Positions 1 through 14,593 of a DNA stretch of 14,795 nucleotides are shown in pieces. Every line of letters starts with the position of its first letter. The first letter of the stretch is position 1. The notes beneath the pieces were generated by a model. It saw only the letters and a program-made list of their open reading frames with translations. It had not been told where the DNA came from and did no database searches. The stretch spans positions 1 to 14,795 of the forward strand of contig JASLEQ010000092.1 in NCBI GenBank assembly GCA_030151135.1. Direction: 5' to 3'. The DNA is from Candidatus Sulfotelmatobacter sp. Lineage in GTDB: Bacteria > Acidobacteriota > Terriglobia > Terriglobales > SbA1. A program made the position numbers and the translations under genes.

Positions 1-49
1 GGAACACCTGCGTCATCCCGATCTTCTTACCTAAAATCCCAGGGCTCAT
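1..49 (-). CDS. rplC: 50S ribosomal protein L3, second copy, 5' fragment cut by the window edge
   Basis: Reading the minus strand from an ATG at 49–47 gives MSPGILGKKIGMTQVF before the edge. This matches the conserved L3 N-terminus and the full L3 at 1105–1839 ([14 protein letters not shown]). A GGAG ribosome-binding site (complement of 55–58) lies 5 nt before the ATG. It follows the minus-strand rpsJ in the usual S10-operon order, so the left side of the window starts a second S10-type operon running leftwards. The N-terminus (MSPG versus MATRVAG) and nucleotide sequence differ clearly from the right-hand copy, so it is not a simple mirror image. Whether the gene is complete beyond the edge cannot be seen. 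Confidence 0.85.
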   Translation of the reverse strand, partial: MSPGILGKKIGMTQVF

Positions 50-98
50 AATATCTCCGGGAGTCCGGATTCAGTCGCATGGTCCAGAACGCTTCGCA

Positions 99-126
99 TT
101 CTGACTTCTGACTTCTGAATTCTGAC
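99..126. repeat. Four tandem heptamers TTCTGAC between left rpsJ and left rplC
   Basis: Four consecutive 7-bp units (TTCTGAC, TTCTGAC, TTCTGAA, TTCTGAC) end inside the stop codon of the minus-strand rpsJ. The word differs from the GCTAGNN and GCTGANN units elsewhere in the window but has the same 7-bp period and the same position against a stop codon. Confidence 0.85.
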
Positions 127-452
127 TACTTGCCTTTCCCGAACGCCTTGATCTCTACATCCACGCCAGCCGGCAGATCCAGCTTCATCAGCGCATCCAC
201 CGTTTGCTGCGTTGGCTCGAGAATGTCGAGCAGACGCTTGTGCGTGCGGATCTCAAACTGCTCCCGAGACTTCTTGTCCACGTGCGGCGAACGCAGCACG
301 CAGTACTTGTTCTTCATCGTGGGTAGCGGAATCGGTCCCGCAATCTGCGCGCCCGTGCGCCGCGCCGTCTCCACGATCTCGCCCGTCGACTGATCCAGAA
401 TGCGATAGTCGTAAGCTTTCAACCGTATCCGAATTCTCTCTTTTCCAATCAC
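126..452 (-). CDS. rpsJ: 30S ribosomal protein S10, second (divergent) copy
   Basis: Encodes 108 residues with the S10 signature [32 protein letters not shown] and a C-terminal [16 protein letters not shown]10 sits in the head of the 30S subunit and doubles as NusE in antitermination complexes. It starts at GTG, with AGGAA upstream, as does the plus-strand copy at 686. The proteins differ at residue 51 (Cys here, Thr there and in E. coli S10) and at the tail (GKGK versus GKEHK). My hand alignment shows about 31 base differences over about 315 aligned bases, nearly all at third positions, so purifying selection has acted on both. It is followed by the start of a second rplC. It could be a true duplicate or a join to a related strain in assembly. 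Confidence 0.95.
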
Positions 453-461
453 GTGTTTCGT

Positions 462-521
462 TTCCTAACCCCTCCCGGCATCTCCAGGAGGAAAGAACCT
501 GCGGAATGTTGCAATCCGCTT
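462..521 (-). promoter_or_regulatory. Conserved 60-bp leader upstream of left rpsJ (left arm of perfect inverted repeat)
   Basis: This is the exact reverse complement of 618–677. Read on the minus strand it holds a small hairpin (GCGGA/TCCGC), then a CCTCC stretch able to pair with the downstream GGAGG, then TTAGGAA as a plausible ribosome-binding site before the GTG start. It is 100% identical to the other copy, whereas the adjoining coding sequences are only about 90% identical. A regulatory role is inferred; I see no convincing -35/-10 pair. Confidence 0.5.
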
Positions 522-522
522 C

Positions 523-616
523 CTTCTAGCTGCTAGCTCCTAGCCGCTAGCTTCTAGCAAATCAACCAAAGTCTTGCCGCTTTAGCTAGTAGCTGGACGC
601 TAGCAGCCAGAAGCTA
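523..616. repeat. Heptamer palindrome element at the centre of the divergent rpsJ pair
   Basis: The left arm (523–558) is built of CTAGCNN-type heptamers and the right arm (583–616) of the complementary GCTAGNN type, with a 24-nt loop. The arms pair imperfectly but extensively. Together with the perfect 60-bp flanks and the rpsJ genes this makes one large inverted repeat from 126 to 1015. It occupies the position where promoters for the two rpsJ genes would be expected, but no clear promoter hexamers were found. Confidence 0.85.
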
Positions 617-617
617 A

Positions 618-677
618 AAGCGGATTGCAACATTCCGCAGGTTCTTTCCTCCTGGAGATGCCGGGAGGGGTTAGGAA
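618..677 (+). promoter_or_regulatory. Conserved 60-bp leader upstream of right rpsJ (right arm of perfect inverted repeat)
   Basis: Identical in inverted orientation to 462–521. Two possible RNA stems are visible: GCGGA (620–624) with TCCGC (634–638), and CCTCC (648–652) with GGAGG (664–668), the second able to mask a purine-rich stretch near the ribosome-binding site. AGGAAG (673–678) is 7 nt before the GTG start of rpsJ. In E. coli the S10 leader is the target of L4 autoregulation; whether this leader works similarly is inference. Confidence 0.5.
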
Positions 678-685
678 GTGAAACA

Positions 686-1015
686 GTGATTGGAAAAGAG
701 AGAATTCGGATCCGGTTGAAAGCGTACGACTATCGCATTCTGGATCAGTCGACGGGCGAAATCGTGGAAACTGCACGGCGCACCGGTGCGCAGATTGCGG
801 GACCGATTCCGCTGCCCACGATGAAAAACAAGTACACGGTGCTGCGTTCGCCGCACGTGGACAAGAAATCGCGGGAGCAGTTCGAGATCCGCACACACAA
901 GCGGTTGCTTGACATTCTCGAACCGACGCAGCAGACCGTAGATGCGCTGATGAAGCTCGATCTGCCGGCTGGAGTCGATGTGGAGATTAAAGCGTTCGGG
1001 AAAGAGCACAAATAA
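686..1015 (+). CDS. rpsJ: 30S ribosomal protein S10
   Basis: First gene of the main S10 operon, 109 residues against about 102 in most bacteria. S10 is a 30S head protein and, as NusE, a partner of NusB in transcription antitermination. The sequence carries [14 protein letters not shown] near the N-terminus, [14 protein letters not shown] around residues 32–45, [17 protein letters not shown] around 55–71 and the closing [15 protein letters not shown]. The start is GTG with AGGAAG 7 nt upstream; no ATG lies in a suitable place, and the minus-strand copy uses the same GTG. The extra residues are a short charged C-terminal tail (GKEHK). The usual upstream tuf/fusA genes are absent; the neighbour is an inverted second rpsJ. 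Confidence 0.97.
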
Positions 1016-1045
1016 GCTTTCAGCTGTCGGCTATCAGCTCTCAGC
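1015..1045. repeat. Heptamer tract AGCTNTC x4 after rpsJ (single arm)
   Basis: Units AGCTTTC, AGCTGTC, GGCTATC and AGCTCTC follow each other exactly, starting in the last base of the rpsJ stop codon, with a trailing AGC. No matching right arm is obvious before rplC, so this looks like a half element. Confidence 0.75.
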
Positions 1046-1104
1046 AAGGCTTCCAGCCAATAGCAGTCGTGAATGACTAGCCAAGCTGGTCGGAGATGAA
1101 AGAT

Positions 1105-1839
1105 ATGGCAACGAGAGTCGCGGGAATTTTGGGCAAGAAGGTCGGGATGACGCAGCTGTTTGACTCGAAGGGCGACGTTCGTCCCGTCACAGTACTGCAG
1201 GCCGGCCCTTGCGTCGTCACGCAGCACAAGACGGCTGTGAAGGATGGATACGAGTCGGCGCAGATCGGGCTGGTTGAGTTTGTGAAGGAGTCGCGGCTTT
1301 CGAAGCCCGAGCGTGGACACTTGGCGAAGAGCAATCTGCCTCCGGTGAAGTTCCTGCGCGAAGTTCCTTTGGAAGTTGATCCGGCGGCGGACGGTAACGG
1401 TGCGGTGAAAATTGGCGACCGCGTGCTCGTAGAAATATTCGATGGCGAGAAGTTTGTTGACGTCGTCGGAATCAGCAAGGGCAAGGGGTTCCAGGGAGTC
1501 GTAAAGCGGCATCACTTCGCGGGCGGCCCGAAGTCCCACGGTTCGATGTTCCAGATTACGGGTTCGATCGGTTCTTCGGCATTTCCTTCCCGCGTTTTTA
1601 AAGGCATGCGGATGTCGGGACACATGGGCAACCAGCAGGTAACGACTCGGAATCTGCGGGTGCTCGGGGTCGATAAAGACGAAAACCTGCTGGTCGTCGA
1701 AGGCAGCGTGCCGGGACCGCAGGGCGGTTACATCGTGATCACGAAGGCGAAGAAGCCGCCACGAGAGCGTCGTGGATTCGCGGGTGCGGCTACGGTCGAT
1801 CCGTTGAAGGCGGCAAAGAGAGCAGCGAAGAAGGCATAA
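1105..1839 (+). CDS. rplC: 50S ribosomal protein L3
   Basis: L3 helps nucleate assembly of the 50S subunit, and its internal loop reaches toward the peptidyl-transferase centre. The protein (244 residues) shows [13 protein letters not shown] at the N-terminus, [13 protein letters not shown] and GPKSHGS in the middle, and [17 protein letters not shown] in the loop. I chose the ATG at 1105 because GGAG (1092–1095) is 9 nt before it; the ATG at 1096 directly abuts that site and would add only MKD. The Gln that PrmB methylates in E. coli L3 (GSIGQNQ) appears to be Ser here (GSIGSSA). A basic, Ala-rich tail of about 30 residues exceeds the usual ~210-residue length. Confidence 0.97.
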
Positions 1840-1849
1840 GAAGTTCGGC

Positions 1850-1874
1850 GCGCGGGCGAGGCACCCGCGCCACA
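1850..1874. repeat. GC-rich REP-like palindrome between rplC and rplD
   Basis: A perfect 7-bp stem, GCGCGGG (1850–1856) with CCCGCGC (1864–1870), has a 7-nt loop and is followed by CACA. A related copy (CGGGC...GCCCGCGCCACA) lies before rpsC at 4850–4870, and both share CCCGCGCCACA. There is no T run, so it is not a typical terminator. Confidence 0.7.
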
Positions 1875-1884
1875 TGAGACATAT

Positions 1885-2625
1885 ATGGCAACGATTGATA
1901 TACACAATTTGAGCGGTGAAAAGGTCGGAACCTTCGATCTGGCCGACGAGATCTTCGGCGCGGTCAACGAAGACCTGCTCTGGGAAGCGGTGAAACACTA
2001 CCGCGCCGGGCAGCGCGCCGGCACGCACAAAACCAAGGGCCGCTGGGAAGTTTCCGGCTCGGGCAAGAAGCTGTGGAAGCAGAAGGGCACAGGCCGCGCC
2101 CGTATCGGATCGATCCGCTCCCCACTGTGGCGGCATGGCTACACGGTGCACGGTCCGGTGCCGCGGTCTTACGATTACACCTTCCCCAAGAAAAAGCTGT
2201 TGGGCGCTTTGCGTTCGGCCCTGGCTTCGAAGTTTGCCGACGGCAAATTGACCGTCGTCAACTCTTTCGACCTCAAGGAACCGAAGACCAAAGAGTTCCA
2301 GAAAGCGCTCGACGCGCTGAAAGTCGAGAAGACGGTGCTGATTGTCGAAGCTGCGAAGCATGACAATCGCAACCTGGAACTGAGCGCGCGAAATATCGAT
2401 GGGCTTGAGCTGGTGCGGGGCAATGAAGTTCATCCCTATCACCTGCTGCGGCATGACCGCGTGATCTTCTCGCATCCTGCCATTGAGAAACTGCAGGTTT
2501 CGCTGCAAGGTTCAGTTTCGAAGAAGCATCGCAAAGCGGGCAGTGGCGAAGACGAGGCGGCGAAGAAGCCGGTGAAAGAGCGGCGCCGCCGGCAGCGTAA
2601 CGAAAAAGCGGCGGAGGTGGCGTAA
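1885..2625 (+). CDS. rplD: 50S ribosomal protein L4
   Basis: L4 binds 23S rRNA domain I, lines the peptide exit tunnel with L22, and in E. coli represses its own S10 operon. The 246-residue protein has the diagnostic tunnel-loop region [25 protein letters not shown] (given here only as a landmark, residues about 52–76) and the following [18 protein letters not shown]. The last ~35 residues are a highly basic tail ([20 protein letters not shown]) beyond the E. coli length of about 201. The start ATG has only a weak ribosome-binding site, and the gap to rplC holds a GC-rich palindrome. The gene ends directly against rplW. Confidence 0.96.
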
Positions 2626-2919
2626 ATGAAGAGCGCATACCAGATCATTCGCCGTCCGGTGATTACCGAGAAGGGTCTCGCGATCAAAGAGAACCAGAAC
2701 ACGCTGGTGTTCCAGGTGTCTCCGAAGGCGACCAAGACGGAAATCAAGGAAGCGGTGCAGTCGATTTTCAAAGTCAAAGTGCATTCGGTCCGCACGGCGA
2801 CTTATCCGGGAAAAGAGCGGCGCCGCGGGAAGTTTGCTGGCTACCGTCCGGATTGGAAGAAGGCGTACGTGCGGTTGCGTTCCGGCGAGAAAATGCCGGA
2901 GTACGCGCAGAATTTGTAA
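2626..2919 (+). CDS. rplW: 50S ribosomal protein L23
   Basis: L23 lies at the exit of the peptide tunnel and is the docking site for trigger factor and SRP. The 97-residue protein, close to the family norm, starts MKSAYQIIRRPVITEKG, the typical L23 opening, with VSPKATKTEIKEAVQSIF and a C-terminal GRRPDWKKAYVRL-like stretch (seen as GYRPDWKKAYVRLRSG). The ATG immediately follows the rplD stop codon with zero spacing, and its GGAGG (2613–2617, 8 nt upstream) lies inside rplD, so translation is likely coupled. Confidence 0.97.
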   Translation: MKSAYQIIRRPVITEKGLAIKENQNTLVFQVSPKATKTEIKEAVQSIFKVKVHSVRTATYPGKERRRGKFAGYRPDWKKAYVRLRSGEKMPEYAQNL

Positions 2920-2924
2920 GAAAG

Positions 2925-3005
2925 CAGCCATCAGCGATCAGCCGTCGGCGATCAGTAAATGCGACGGCAGAAACGCTGAGAGCTGATAGCCAAGAGCTGA
3001 GAGCT
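2925..3005. repeat. Heptamer palindrome element between rplW and rplB
   Basis: The left arm (2925–2955) has CATCAGC/GATCAGC-type words and the right arm (2974–3005) repeats GCTGAGA and GCTGATA words at 7-bp steps. The right arm ends in GAGAG (2999–3003), 6 nt from the rplB ATG, so it doubles as the likely ribosome-binding site. Confidence 0.8.
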
Positions 3006-3009
3006 TTTT

Positions 3010-3834
3010 ATGCCGATTAAGACATACAGACCGACGACGCAGACGCTGCGGTATCGCACGACGATCGTCAACGACGACATCACGACGAAGCATCCGCACA
3101 AGCCGCTGGTCGAGCCCAAGCCGCGTACTGGTGGACGGCGCAACTCGGGCGACACCACGATGCGGTTCATCGGGGGCGGCCATAAGCGTAAGCTGCGCAT
3201 CATCGACTTCAAGCGCGATAAAAGCGGGATTCCGGCAACGGTCACGACCATCGAGTACGATCCAAACCGCTCGTCGCGAATCGCCCTGCTAGCCTACGCA
3301 GACGGCGAGAAGCGGTACATTCTTCAGCCGGAAGGCTTGAAGGTTGGGCAGAAGATCCTGAGCGGCCCGGATGCGGACATTCTTGTGGGCAATGCGCTTC
3401 CGCTGCGGAACATTCCGCCAGGCACTGTGATCCATAACGTCGAACTCAAGCCCGGCAAGGGCGCCCAGATGGTGCGGTCGGCCGGCGGGTCGGCGCAGTT
3501 GGTTGCGAAGGAATCGGACTATGCCCTGGTGAAGTTGCCCTCGGGCGAAACTCGTAAAGTTTCACAGGATTGCATGGCGACGATCGGGCAGGTCGGGAAC
3601 ATCGATCACGAGAACGTCACAATCGGTAAAGCTGGACGGTCGCGGTGGCTGGGCAAGCGTCCGCATAACCGCGGTGTATCAATGAACCCGGTCGACCATC
3701 CGCATGGCGGTGGTGAGGGAAAGACCTCCGGCGGACGGCATCCGGTGACCCCTTGGGGCCAGCCGACGCGTGGATATAAGACGCGGAACAACAAGCGTAC
3801 GGATAAGTTCATCGTGAGCCGGAGAAGCAAGTAA
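3010..3834 (+). CDS. rplB: 50S ribosomal protein L2
   Basis: L2 is a primary 23S-binding protein needed for subunit association and peptidyl-transferase function. At 274 residues it matches the family length. Visible landmarks are [20 protein letters not shown] near residues 41–60, the RNA-binding OB/SH3 core, and the signature [17 protein letters not shown] around 226–242. The latter contains the histidines (H230, H232) in the region of E. coli His229, which is important for activity. It ends with [20 protein letters not shown], the usual basic C-terminus. The start ATG has GAGAG 6 nt upstream, supplied by the heptamer repeat that fills the gap after rplW. Confidence 0.98.
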
Positions 3835-3852
3835 GAATCCGGGAAGAGGGTA

Positions 3853-3880
3853 GGGATTCCTCGCTCCGCTCGGAATGACA
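3853..3880. repeat. REP-like palindrome, ATTCC...GGAAT followed by GACA
   Basis: ATTCC (3856–3860) pairs with GGAAT (3872–3876) around a TCGCTCCGCTC loop, followed by GACA. The form resembles widely dispersed intergenic palindromes ending in (A/G)ATGACA. The one between secY and adk (12929–12965) is a cousin. A terminator role is unlikely because there is no T run next to the stem. Confidence 0.7.
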
Positions 3881-3894
3881 GAGTGTTGGGTTTT

Positions 3895-3927
3895 GCTAAA
3901 AGCTACAAGCTAAGAGCTAGAGGCTGA
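3895..3927. repeat. Heptamer tract (right-arm type) before rpsS
   Basis: Units of the form GCTANNA at about 7-bp steps end in GCTAGAGGCTGA shortly before the rpsS ATG. GAGG (3920–3923), 9 nt from the start, is the likely ribosome-binding site. The same string GCTAGAGGCT also precedes rplP. Confidence 0.7.
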
Positions 3928-3932
3928 TTTTT

Positions 3933-4280
3933 ATGGCGCGTTCAACAAAGAAGGGCGCATTCGTTGATGCTTACCTGCAGACGCGGGTAGAAGGCATGAA
4001 TGCGCGCAACGAGAAAAAAGTGCTGCGTACGTGGTCGCGGCGCTCCACGGTCGTCCCCGAGATGGTGGGACACACGATCGCAGTGCACAACGGGAAGAAA
4101 TTCATCCCGGTGTACGTGACCGAAAATATGGTGGGACACAAGCTGGGCGAGTTCAGCTTCACACGCACCTTCAAGGGACACTCGATGAAGGCGGCGACGG
4201 AAGTTGCGGCGAAGCCAGCGGGTATCCCTGGCGGCCCAGGAGCATCGTCTCCGGCGGCCCCGGCAGCGCCGAAGGCATAA
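3933..4280 (+). CDS. rpsS: 30S ribosomal protein S19
   Basis: S19 sits in the 30S head, pairs with S13 and contacts the A-site finger of the 50S. The sequence opens [15 protein letters not shown] and contains [20 protein letters not shown] and [22 protein letters not shown], all diagnostic. At 115 residues it is about 23 longer than E. coli S19 (92). The extra length is a C-terminal Ala/Pro/Gly tail after the conserved core (about residue 90), low in complexity and probably disordered. It is the third of the L2-S19-L22 trio in standard order. Confidence 0.97.
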
Positions 4281-4336
4281 AACGGCAAGACTTGGTAAGG
4301 GACTTAGGAAGCAAGATGGTTTCTAGCTTCTGATTC

Positions 4337-4369
4337 AGCTAGGAGCTAGCGGCTAGGAGCTAGTAGCTA
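4337..4369. repeat. Heptamer tract (right-arm type) before rplV
   Basis: Units AGCTAGG, AGCTAGC, GGCTAGG, AGCTAGT and AGCTAAC run at exact 7-bp steps into the rplV ATG. A short left remnant TCTAGCTTCTGA (4322–4333) may be the decayed partner arm. GGAG (4356–4359) is 12 nt before the start codon, a little far but the best site available. Confidence 0.8.
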
Positions 4370-4371
4370 AC

Positions 4372-4839
4372 ATGGAATTTCGAGCGAAAAAAATGTTTTT
4401 GCGGGTTTCGCCACAGAAAGCCCGCCTGGTGCTGAATCTGATCAAGGGGCGCCGCGTGGAAGATGCGCGCAACACCTTGCTGTTCACCAAGAAGCGCGTG
4501 GCGGAGCACGTCGGCAAGCTGCTGCAGTCGGCGCTCGACAATGCGAACTTCCTCTCCACAGAGAAGGGGATCGATGTCGATATCGACAACTTGTATGTGA
4601 AGGGTGCGGTGGCAAATGACGGGCCGCGCATGAAGCGGATTCGCCCGGCCCCGCAAGGCCGCGCGTACCGGTATCAGCGGCGCATTGCGCATATCGAACT
4701 GGTCCTGGCCGAGCGTGGAAAGAATAGCTCGGTGGCGACTGTGGTCGGCGAAGAGGCGGCGCCGGCTGCTCCAGCGAAGGCGCGGCGAAGAGCTCCAGTG
4801 AAGGCCTCTGGGAAAAAGAAGAAAGCAGCAGCAAAGTAG
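4372..4839 (+). CDS. rplV: 50S ribosomal protein L22
   Basis: L22 contacts all 23S domains, and its long beta-hairpin lines the exit tunnel near the macrolide site. The core shows RVSPQKARLVLNLIKGRRV near the N-terminus, ALDNANFLS in the middle, and the hairpin region around residues 84–103 (GPRMKRIRPAPQGRAYRYQR). At 155 residues it is about 45 longer than E. coli L22; the surplus is a C-terminal Ala/Pro/Lys tail from about residue 118 ending KKKKAAAK. Such tails are common on acidobacterial and some other ribosomal proteins, and this one's role is unknown. Confidence 0.97.
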   Translation: MEFRAKKMFLRVSPQKARLVLNLIKGRRVEDARNTLLFTKKRVAEHVGKLLQSALDNANFLSTEKGIDVDIDNLYVKGAVANDGPRMKRIRPAPQGRAYRYQRRIAHIELVLAERGKNSSVATVVGEEAAPAAPAKARRRAPVKASGKKKKAAAK

Positions 4840-4849
4840 ACGAGAGTCA

Positions 4850-4870
4850 CGGGCAGGCGCCCGCGCCACA
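4850..4870. repeat. GC-rich REP-like palindrome between rplV and rpsC
   Basis: CGGGC (4850–4854) pairs with GCCCG (4859–4863) across a 4-nt loop, followed by CGCCACA. It shares CCCGCGCCACA with the palindrome at 1850–1874 between rplC and rplD, so the two are copies of one small dispersed element. Confidence 0.7.
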
Positions 4871-4897
4871 CAGGTTTGAGAAGTTTTAGGAGAAGCA

Positions 4898-5566
4898 ATG
4901 GGACAAAAAGTCCATCCTTATGGTTTTCGGCTTGGGTTTACGAAGCCGTGGAAGTCGCGCTGGTTTGCCGAGCGGGACTACGACAAGCAGTTGCATGAGG
5001 ACGTGAAGCTGAAGAATGAGCTGAAGGAAAAGCTCAAGTCGGCGGGCGTCAGCGCGATTGAGATCGAGCGTCCGGGCAACAAGCTGCGCATCATTATCAA
5101 GACGGCGCGGCCCGGGATCATCATTGGACGCAAGGGCGCAGAGATCGACAAGCTCAAGGCAGAGCTGCAGAAGCGCACCGGCGGCAAGGATATTTTCGTC
5201 GACATCCAGGAAGTGCATAAGCCTGAACTCGACGCGCAGTTGGTGTCGGAGTCGATCGCGCTGCAACTGGAAAAGCGCGTTGGCTTCCGGCGCGCCATGC
5301 GCAAGGCGGTGGATTCGGCGCTGCGTTTCGGATGCAAAGGCATCAAGGTTCGCGTGAGCGGCCGGTTGAATGGGAACGAAATCGCGCGGTCGGAGTGGTA
5401 TCTGCAAGGACGCTTGCCGCTGCACACGCTGCGTGCCGACATCGATTTCGGATTCAGCGAAGCGCGCACGACGTATGGCGTGATCGGCGTGAAGTGCTGG
5501 GTGTACAAGGGTGAGATTCTGCCGCAGAAGAAGCGAGAGCAGCAGGCGGCGGTAGGCGGATTCTAA
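4898..5566 (+). CDS. rpsC: 30S ribosomal protein S3
   Basis: S3 forms part of the mRNA entry tunnel and, with S4 and S5, the ribosomal helicase. The 222-residue protein begins [13 protein letters not shown], as in nearly all S3 proteins. It has a type II KH domain with the GxxG loop GRKG at residues 77–80, and basic residues R131, R132 and R135 in [10 protein letters not shown] that align with the E. coli helicase residues. The C-terminal domain carries [14 protein letters not shown] and [18 protein letters not shown] (4888–4892) lies 5 nt before the ATG, a strong site not derived from the heptamer repeats. Confidence 0.98.
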
Positions 5567-7454: not shown

Positions 7455-7520
7455 CGCTTTCAGCTATCAGCTTATTGCTGATGCACTGGCTGAGAGCTGA
7501 AAGCTGAAAGCTGAGAGCTG
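7455..7520. repeat. Heptamer palindrome element between rplX and rplE
   Basis: A short left arm (7455–7473, CGCTTTCAGCTATCAGCTT) faces a longer right arm (7488–7520) of GCTGAGA, GCTGAAA, GCTGAAA, GCTGAGA and GCTGG words. GAGAG (7513–7517) is 6 nt before the rplE ATG. Confidence 0.85.
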
Positions 7521-10102: not shown

Positions 10103-10180
10103 GCAGCTTCTAGCTGCTAGCTTCCAGCTACTAGCCAAATCGGGCTAGCTAGAAGCTAGTAGCTAGAGGCTAGAAGCTAG
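10103..10180. repeat. Heptamer palindrome element between rplR and rpsE
   Basis: Left arm (10103–10136): AGCTTCT, AGCTGCT, AGCTTCC, AGCTACT, AGCC. Right arm (10142–10180): GGCTAGC, TAGAAGC, TAGTAGC, TAGAGGC, TAGAAGC, TAG. The loop is only about 5 nt, so this could form an almost continuous hairpin. It starts 2 nt after the rplR stop and ends 8 nt before rpsE. Confidence 0.9.
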
Positions 10181-14512: not shown

Positions 14513-14593
14513 AAGCTTCTAGCTGCTAGCTCCCAGCGTCTAGCTAGTCGGTTGGCAGTCAGCTAGAAGCTAGTAGCTAGAAGCCAGGAGCTA
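14513..14593. repeat. Heptamer palindrome element between map and infA
   Basis: Left arm (14513–14545): AAGCTTCT, AGCTGCT, AGCTCCC, AGCGTCT, AGCT. Right arm (14561–14593): AGCTAGA, AGCTAGT, AGCTAGA, AGCCAGG, AGCTA. The loop is 15 nt. By hand about 26 of 33 arm positions are complementary. Its last word contains AGGAGC, which doubles as the ribosome-binding site of the truncated infA copy. Confidence 0.9.

Follow-up and report, generated by a model that had tools for sequence, protein, structure and literature searches.

Can one acidobacterium carry two starts of the S10 operon placed back to back, or does the end of this contig join DNA from different organisms? The window analysed here, a stretch of 14,795 nucleotides from Candidatus Sulfotelmatobacter sp. 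(contig JASLEQ010000092.1), contains an S10-spc-type ribosomal gene cluster that runs rightward from rpsJ. NCBIfam models confirm S10, L3, L4, SecY, adenylate kinase and methionyl aminopeptidase in it, and the identity of the genes between them was read by eye from their translations. On the opposite strand at the left lies a second intact rpsJ (126-452, minus strand), followed by 16 codons of rplC (49-2, minus strand); as the original prediction had described, both run leftward from a common centre. Our comparison with related genomes argues, with a probability of about 0.92, that the back-to-back rpsJ genes represent a chimeric or misjoined contig end in a multi-organism Acidobacteria assembly and not a gene duplication.

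Geometry of the inverted arms

The inverted duplication itself is confirmed in the sequence. A gapped alignment of 3-1160 to its own reverse complement gives 80% identity over 1189 columns (E = 0.0), and the arms pair as 454-521/618-685 (97%), 101-452/686-1037 (87%) and 3-40/1123-1160 (87%). Identity thus falls from 97% in the leader, which adjoins the centre, to 87% across the gene, and the longest exact run common to both arms comprises 60 bases of the leader (462-521 versus 618-677).

Read outward from the centre, the left arm consists of a copy of the rpsJ leader (453-521, minus strand), the left rpsJ with its GTG start (126-452), a spacer (50-125, minus strand) with a TTCTGAC heptamer array at 99-127, and the first 16 codons of rplC (2-49, minus strand; MSPGILGKKIGMTQVF). 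The left rpsJ encodes an S10 of 108 amino acids whose body resembles that of the window's family and whose C-terminus reads GKGK, while the rplC fragment is closest to MSPG-type, Bryobacterales-like loci and ends within codon 16 at the first base of the window, which we assume to be the contig end. The right arm begins with the rpsJ leader (618-685, plus strand), which contains two hairpins at the same place as those of relatives, and continues with an rpsJ that also starts with GTG (686-1015, plus strand; 109 amino acids, C-terminus GKEHK). This gene is followed by a conserved pre-rplC element identified by comparison with relatives (1053-1089, plus strand; CCAGCCAATAG, a variable hairpin and AGCCAAGCTGG) and by the rplC that we take as native (1105-1839, plus strand), which is recognised as L3 by NCBIfam. 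Its start at 1105 agrees with those of relatives and lies three codons after the start given by the ORF tool (1096).

The centre of the inversion (522-617) is composed of two CTAGCTG-type heptamer arrays which are 80% complementary over 30 bases and could form an imperfect hairpin; it is the probable zone of the false join. The idea that a palindromic centre promoted the join therefore needs rewording: a clean palindrome is absent, and the hairpin consists of heptamer arrays similar to ones found in tuf-rpsJ spacers of relatives. By eye, inverted heptamer arrays were seen in this spacer in L001, L104, L109, L112, L120 and L123 and one-way arrays in L100, L114, L116, L118 and L125, and arrays like those of the centre recur in genomes G006 and G007. 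Since exact runs common to the centre and the rest of the window do not exceed 20 bases, a jump driven purely by repeats would need a small k-mer or pair linking. Heptamer arrays of the CTAGCTG/TTCTGAC type, some of them as inverted pairs, occupy many intergenic gaps of the window (99-127, 526-616, 1015-1045, 2925-3005, 4336-4369, 7489-7520, 10105-10180 and 14561-14593), and arrays of a similar kind are found in other acidobacterial genomes.

Divergence and origin of the two arms

Both rpsJ frames score far above the NCBIfam cut-off for S10 (170.4 and 171 bits, cut-off 85). Among 309 compared bases there are 31 differences, of which 28 fall on third codon positions; 28 of the 103 codons differ silently and one is replaced, in good agreement with the roughly 31, nearly all silent, differences that had been reported. 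Compared with the related locus L001, the left copy shows 32 silent and one replaced codon and the right copy 32 and two. Judged by these counts, the distance between the two copies is about that of either copy to L001, i.e. at the level of species. A fold-back between strains was rejected, as the arms are too different for it. The view that selection has kept each copy as a functional S10 is right for either gene taken by itself; it does not demand that the two share a genome.

Genes that arose by duplication within a genome should be nearest each other. This is not the case for the left rpsJ, which over 318 bases is closer to the genes of seven of 33 relatives than to the right copy (90.3%): L101 (93.1%), L100 (92.8%) and L102 (92.1%), followed by L108, L110, L105 and L103. 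For the right copy, the left copy and L102 share first place among 34 rows, both at 90.3%. A tree based on the 318 rpsJ columns places the left copy in an open fork of 31 rows and the right copy with L106, L115 and L119 in an open fork; strong support was obtained at five of its 32 inner branches, and the tree is hence not used as proof.

Near the centre, the arms are more alike. Their 64-nt leaders are 95% identical, a value reached by one of the 410 family pairs that diverge by 8% or more across the rest of rpsJ. Divergence between the left and right rpsJ amounts to 3.8% in the first 78 bases and 11.7% in the remainder; 15 of 328 comparable pairs are as little diverged in these 78 bases, so that, taken alone, this is a weak observation. 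The first third of the left rpsJ is 95.7% identical to the family locus L100 and 67-80% identical to MSPG-type and similar loci, L147 and L150 being left out of this comparison as they were out of register in it.

Several features suggest that the right arm can be taken as the native copy. The region 616-5334 aligns at 77% to L001 (PKVW01000064, titled Acidobacteriaceae bacterium palsa_292), GKEHK is the commonest S10 end of the family (72 of 87 loci), the L3 start resembles that of family loci, and the pre-rpsJ leader and the pre-rplC element are both present as in many relatives. From its leader through rpsJ and the pre-rplC element to rplC and onward, the right arm is thus like the ordinary tuf-rpsJ-rplC junction of the family, where the str and S10 operons meet. 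Unlike this junction, the window lacks tuf and carries the inverted left arm instead.

The far end of the left arm bears other marks. We read 87 family loci from 86 genomes, the best-scoring part of 231 matching genomes in a draw of 300. The S10 gene could be read in 84 of the family loci and the L3 start in 81; none of the former encodes an S10 ending in GKGK, and none of the latter an L3 starting with MSPG. Outside the family, GKGK ends the S10 of 10 among 96 loci and MSPG opens the L3 of 22 among 67. Among the loci that carry a name, MSPG is present in L006 (Bryobacteraceae), L009 (Sulfopaludibacter) and L035 (Bryobacterales) and also in L007, L019 and L026, which are titled Terriglobia or Acidobacteria; L024, titled Bryobacterales, has neither GKGK nor MSPG. 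In these loci, the two motifs are not general marks of Bryobacterales. Over its 48 bases, the left rplC shares 94% identity with L135 and a mean of 87% with the 22 MSPG loci, as compared with a mean of 70% and a maximum of 79% for family loci. The 39-base rplC core alone also reaches 95% to L147 and L150, whose genomes (G042 and G127) belong to the 300-genome family draw yet lack MSPG. In a class-wide draw, 175 of 399 genomes match 1-140, with the two best candidates per genome scored, and the best match over 1-57 among the scored candidates is G376 with 93%.

Sliding windows revealed no switch of lineage inside the left rpsJ; across its second half, the best family match equals or exceeds the best Bryobacterales-like match in every one of the 14 windows. 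The foreign end therefore rests on the last codons, the spacer and the 48 bases of rplC. The pre-rplC elements of relatives are absent from the left-arm spacer, and L005 has a somewhat similar spacer after GKGK. Taken together, the left arm mixes a leader like that of the right arm, an rpsJ body like that of other family members and a GKGK/MSPG end, and it is foreign to the right arm.

The tuf-rpsJ junction in relatives and the case for a false join

The gene immediately upstream of rpsJ is tuf in 84 of the 87 family loci. A tblastn search with the C-terminus of EF-Tu gave a match upstream of rpsJ in 74 of them, 54-405 bases away, and in 10 further loci the last tuf codons were readable by eye; of the remaining three, L129 and L198 start too close to rpsJ and L211 is partial. 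Conserved synteny is broken at the left arm of the window, where tuf would be expected beside the right rpsJ and the inverted arm stands in its place. An inverted rpsJ or an insert of this kind occurs in none of the 87 loci. In the more distant L018, on a 5.0-Mb contig, a single rpsJ follows an apparent tuf end. The locus L209 (genome G192) shows two overlapping, frameshift-like S10 matches at a contig edge and is the only such family locus.

Copy number was assessed in several sets of genomes. One whole S10 was found in 36 of 36 family genomes in which all candidates were scored, and also in each of G207, G131 and G294; in a set of nine genomes, six of which recur in the 300-genome draw, all nine have one place for rpsJ. 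In the draw of 300 itself, 231 genomes matched and 69 had no match at E 1e-20; here the two best candidates per genome were scored, which is weaker than full scoring. Among the matches listed for the 231 genomes there are two each, except for G293 (four) and G294 (one), and where places are given, the two matches correspond to one gene met by both arms of the query. Two candidates for a second gene were rejected: the matches in G293 are two partial pieces at contig ends, and the extra S10 in G135 is a piece of 24 residues at the first base of another contig (G135:C183:1-72). The search for related genomes with two rpsJ genes, as proposed along with the original prediction, has thus returned single whole genes in the fully scored genomes, and close relatives with one rpsJ behind tuf do exist; a finished genome of this kind is what the prediction itself had named as evidence against a duplication. 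Together with the mixed lineage markers, these counts speak against its headline of two S10 genes in one cell.

The anomaly starts at a frequent breakpoint of contigs and extends over 521 bases to the first base of the window. For 26 of the first 40 of 80 loci, no more than 500 bases separate the contig start from the rpsJ downstream of it; frequent contig starts at this place are tentatively ascribed to repeated sequence, such as a second tuf. The broken rpsJ genes of L209 and G135 are further signs of assemblies stumbling at this locus. Chimeric or fold-back contig ends are a known class of artefacts in metagenome assemblies. The window resembles them in the inverted copy at its own edge, which is assumed to be that of the contig, in arms that appear to come from different organisms, in a join that lies in repeated sequence (the heptamer arrays and the 60-base exact leader in both arms) and in the missing neighbour gene. 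It differs from a simple fold-back in that its arms are not identical copies of one molecule and in that its outer arm shows the marks of more than one lineage.

In the proposed scenario, the sequence from about 522 rightward would be where the S10 operon of a single Acidobacteriota species genuinely begins; the tuf of this species should lie just left of 522 and is missing, and 1 to about 521 would be a false extension. The assembler, or a chimeric read, may have passed from the heptamer-array hairpin of the tuf-rpsJ spacer into the reverse-complemented version of this locus in one or more other members of the community. The left arm would then be made up of a near-native leader, the rpsJ body of another family member and a Bryobacterales-like rpsJ end and rplC start. 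We infer the breakpoints, an origin of the join in assembly or library making, and two or three sources. The species-level divergence of the arms and the absence of GKGK and MSPG from the family loci read suggest that the parts stem from different genomes. The chimeric join that the original prediction offered as an alternative is supported in this respect; its sources as strains of one species are not, given that the arms are a species-level distance apart and that the far end of the left arm is of a lineage type absent from the family loci read. A variant compatible with a false join, possible though rather doubtful, would derive the whole left arm from a single lineage outside the present sampling, in which a family-type rpsJ naturally occurs together with GKGK and MSPG; the contig would then join two organisms instead of three. 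The lack of a visible switch inside the left rpsJ and the L005 spacer are consistent with such a lineage, for which the reading of the locus in the best-scoring 86 of 231 matching genomes leaves room; the leader identity to the right arm, matched by so few comparable pairs, and the absence of both motifs from all readable family loci argue against it.

A real inverted duplication in one genome would comprise a second S10 operon start that diverged silently, with its part near the centre gene-converted across the palindrome. Two intact frames for a highly conserved protein fit this explanation, as do an identity that climbs toward the centre, as gene conversion between inverted copies would give, and the right copy's nearest neighbour in the panel of 34, which is the left copy, tied with L102. 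However, it leaves the GKGK/MSPG end of the left arm unexplained, the left copy is nearer to the genes of seven other species, and the constant position of tuf and the single whole rpsJ of relatives speak against it; in addition, no promoter-like site was found on either strand of 1-1200, a weak point in view of an average of 0.5 in shuffled sequences. We therefore regard this explanation as very improbable. It is likewise hard to credit that a genome has two divergently transcribed S10 operon starts that differ at silent sites, the second of which was taken up from other acidobacteria and became in part uniform with the first through gene conversion across the heptamer-array hairpin. Least probable of all would be a real junction created by horizontal transfer, in which part of the S10 operon of another acidobacterium entered in inverted orientation between tuf and rpsJ through recombination at the heptamer arrays. 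The left arm does differ from the right one as another species would, and the abundant arrays could recombine, but the piece itself would have to mix lineages or stem from an unseen one, and no family locus contains such an insert.

If the duplication were real, it would mean a doubled gene for S10/NusE and foreign DNA inside a ribosomal operon cluster. The false join favoured here calls for caution instead: an inverted duplicate of a ribosomal-protein gene at a contig edge, with tuf missing and lineage markers mixed in one arm, looks like the product of a false join, and such joins may be expected in the gap between tuf and rpsJ in these Acidobacteriota.

Candidate leader elements upstream of rpsJ and rplC

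The comparison of loci also brought up leader-like RNA elements which merit a study of their own. The elements before rpsJ and before rplC are candidates for ribosomal-protein leaders. A pattern of two hairpins between tuf and rpsJ, located at 618-680 in the window with its left copy at 453-521, was seen in 48 of the 87 family loci. Ten of these 48 loci, being longer or irregular, were set aside; the other 38, aligned with the window, give a fold of two hairpins in which five of 14 pairs show compensatory changes. The leader of the window by itself folds moderately better than shuffled sequences (z -1.85, with 11 of 200 shuffles as good).

A scan of window positions 1-3000 against Rfam gave no match at E values up to 1, and the same scan of 10 relatives' loci yielded a single match, Acido-Lenti-1 at 1341-1386 of L181. 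The main text of a survey of r-leaders (PMC7247131) does not contain the string 'Acidobacteri', and the S10 leader mentioned there is that of Firmicutes. A literature search that joined structured RNA, Acidobacteria, an upstream position and rplC found no paper.

Before rplC, at least two types of element can be distinguished. One consists of CCAGCCAAUAG, a hairpin and GCCANGCUGG just before the gene and is present in 33 loci of relatives and at 1053-1089 of the window; its inner part is strongly variable in length and sequence. The other has the form CAGU-NNN...NNN-AUGAUG and was found in 34 loci of relatives, e.g. L204, L181, L182 and L200. RNAalifold predicted no pairs for a loose alignment of 18 of its sequences, and the two triplets between CAGU and AUGAUG are exact complements in 25 of the 34 loci, compared with a mean of 9.1 and a maximum of 16 in 1000 shuffles. 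A third sequence that recurs in the rpsJ-rplC spacer, AAGCTTCCG ... CCCCGG ... GGAAGCGGAG, was noticed by eye in L193, L194, L176 and L171.
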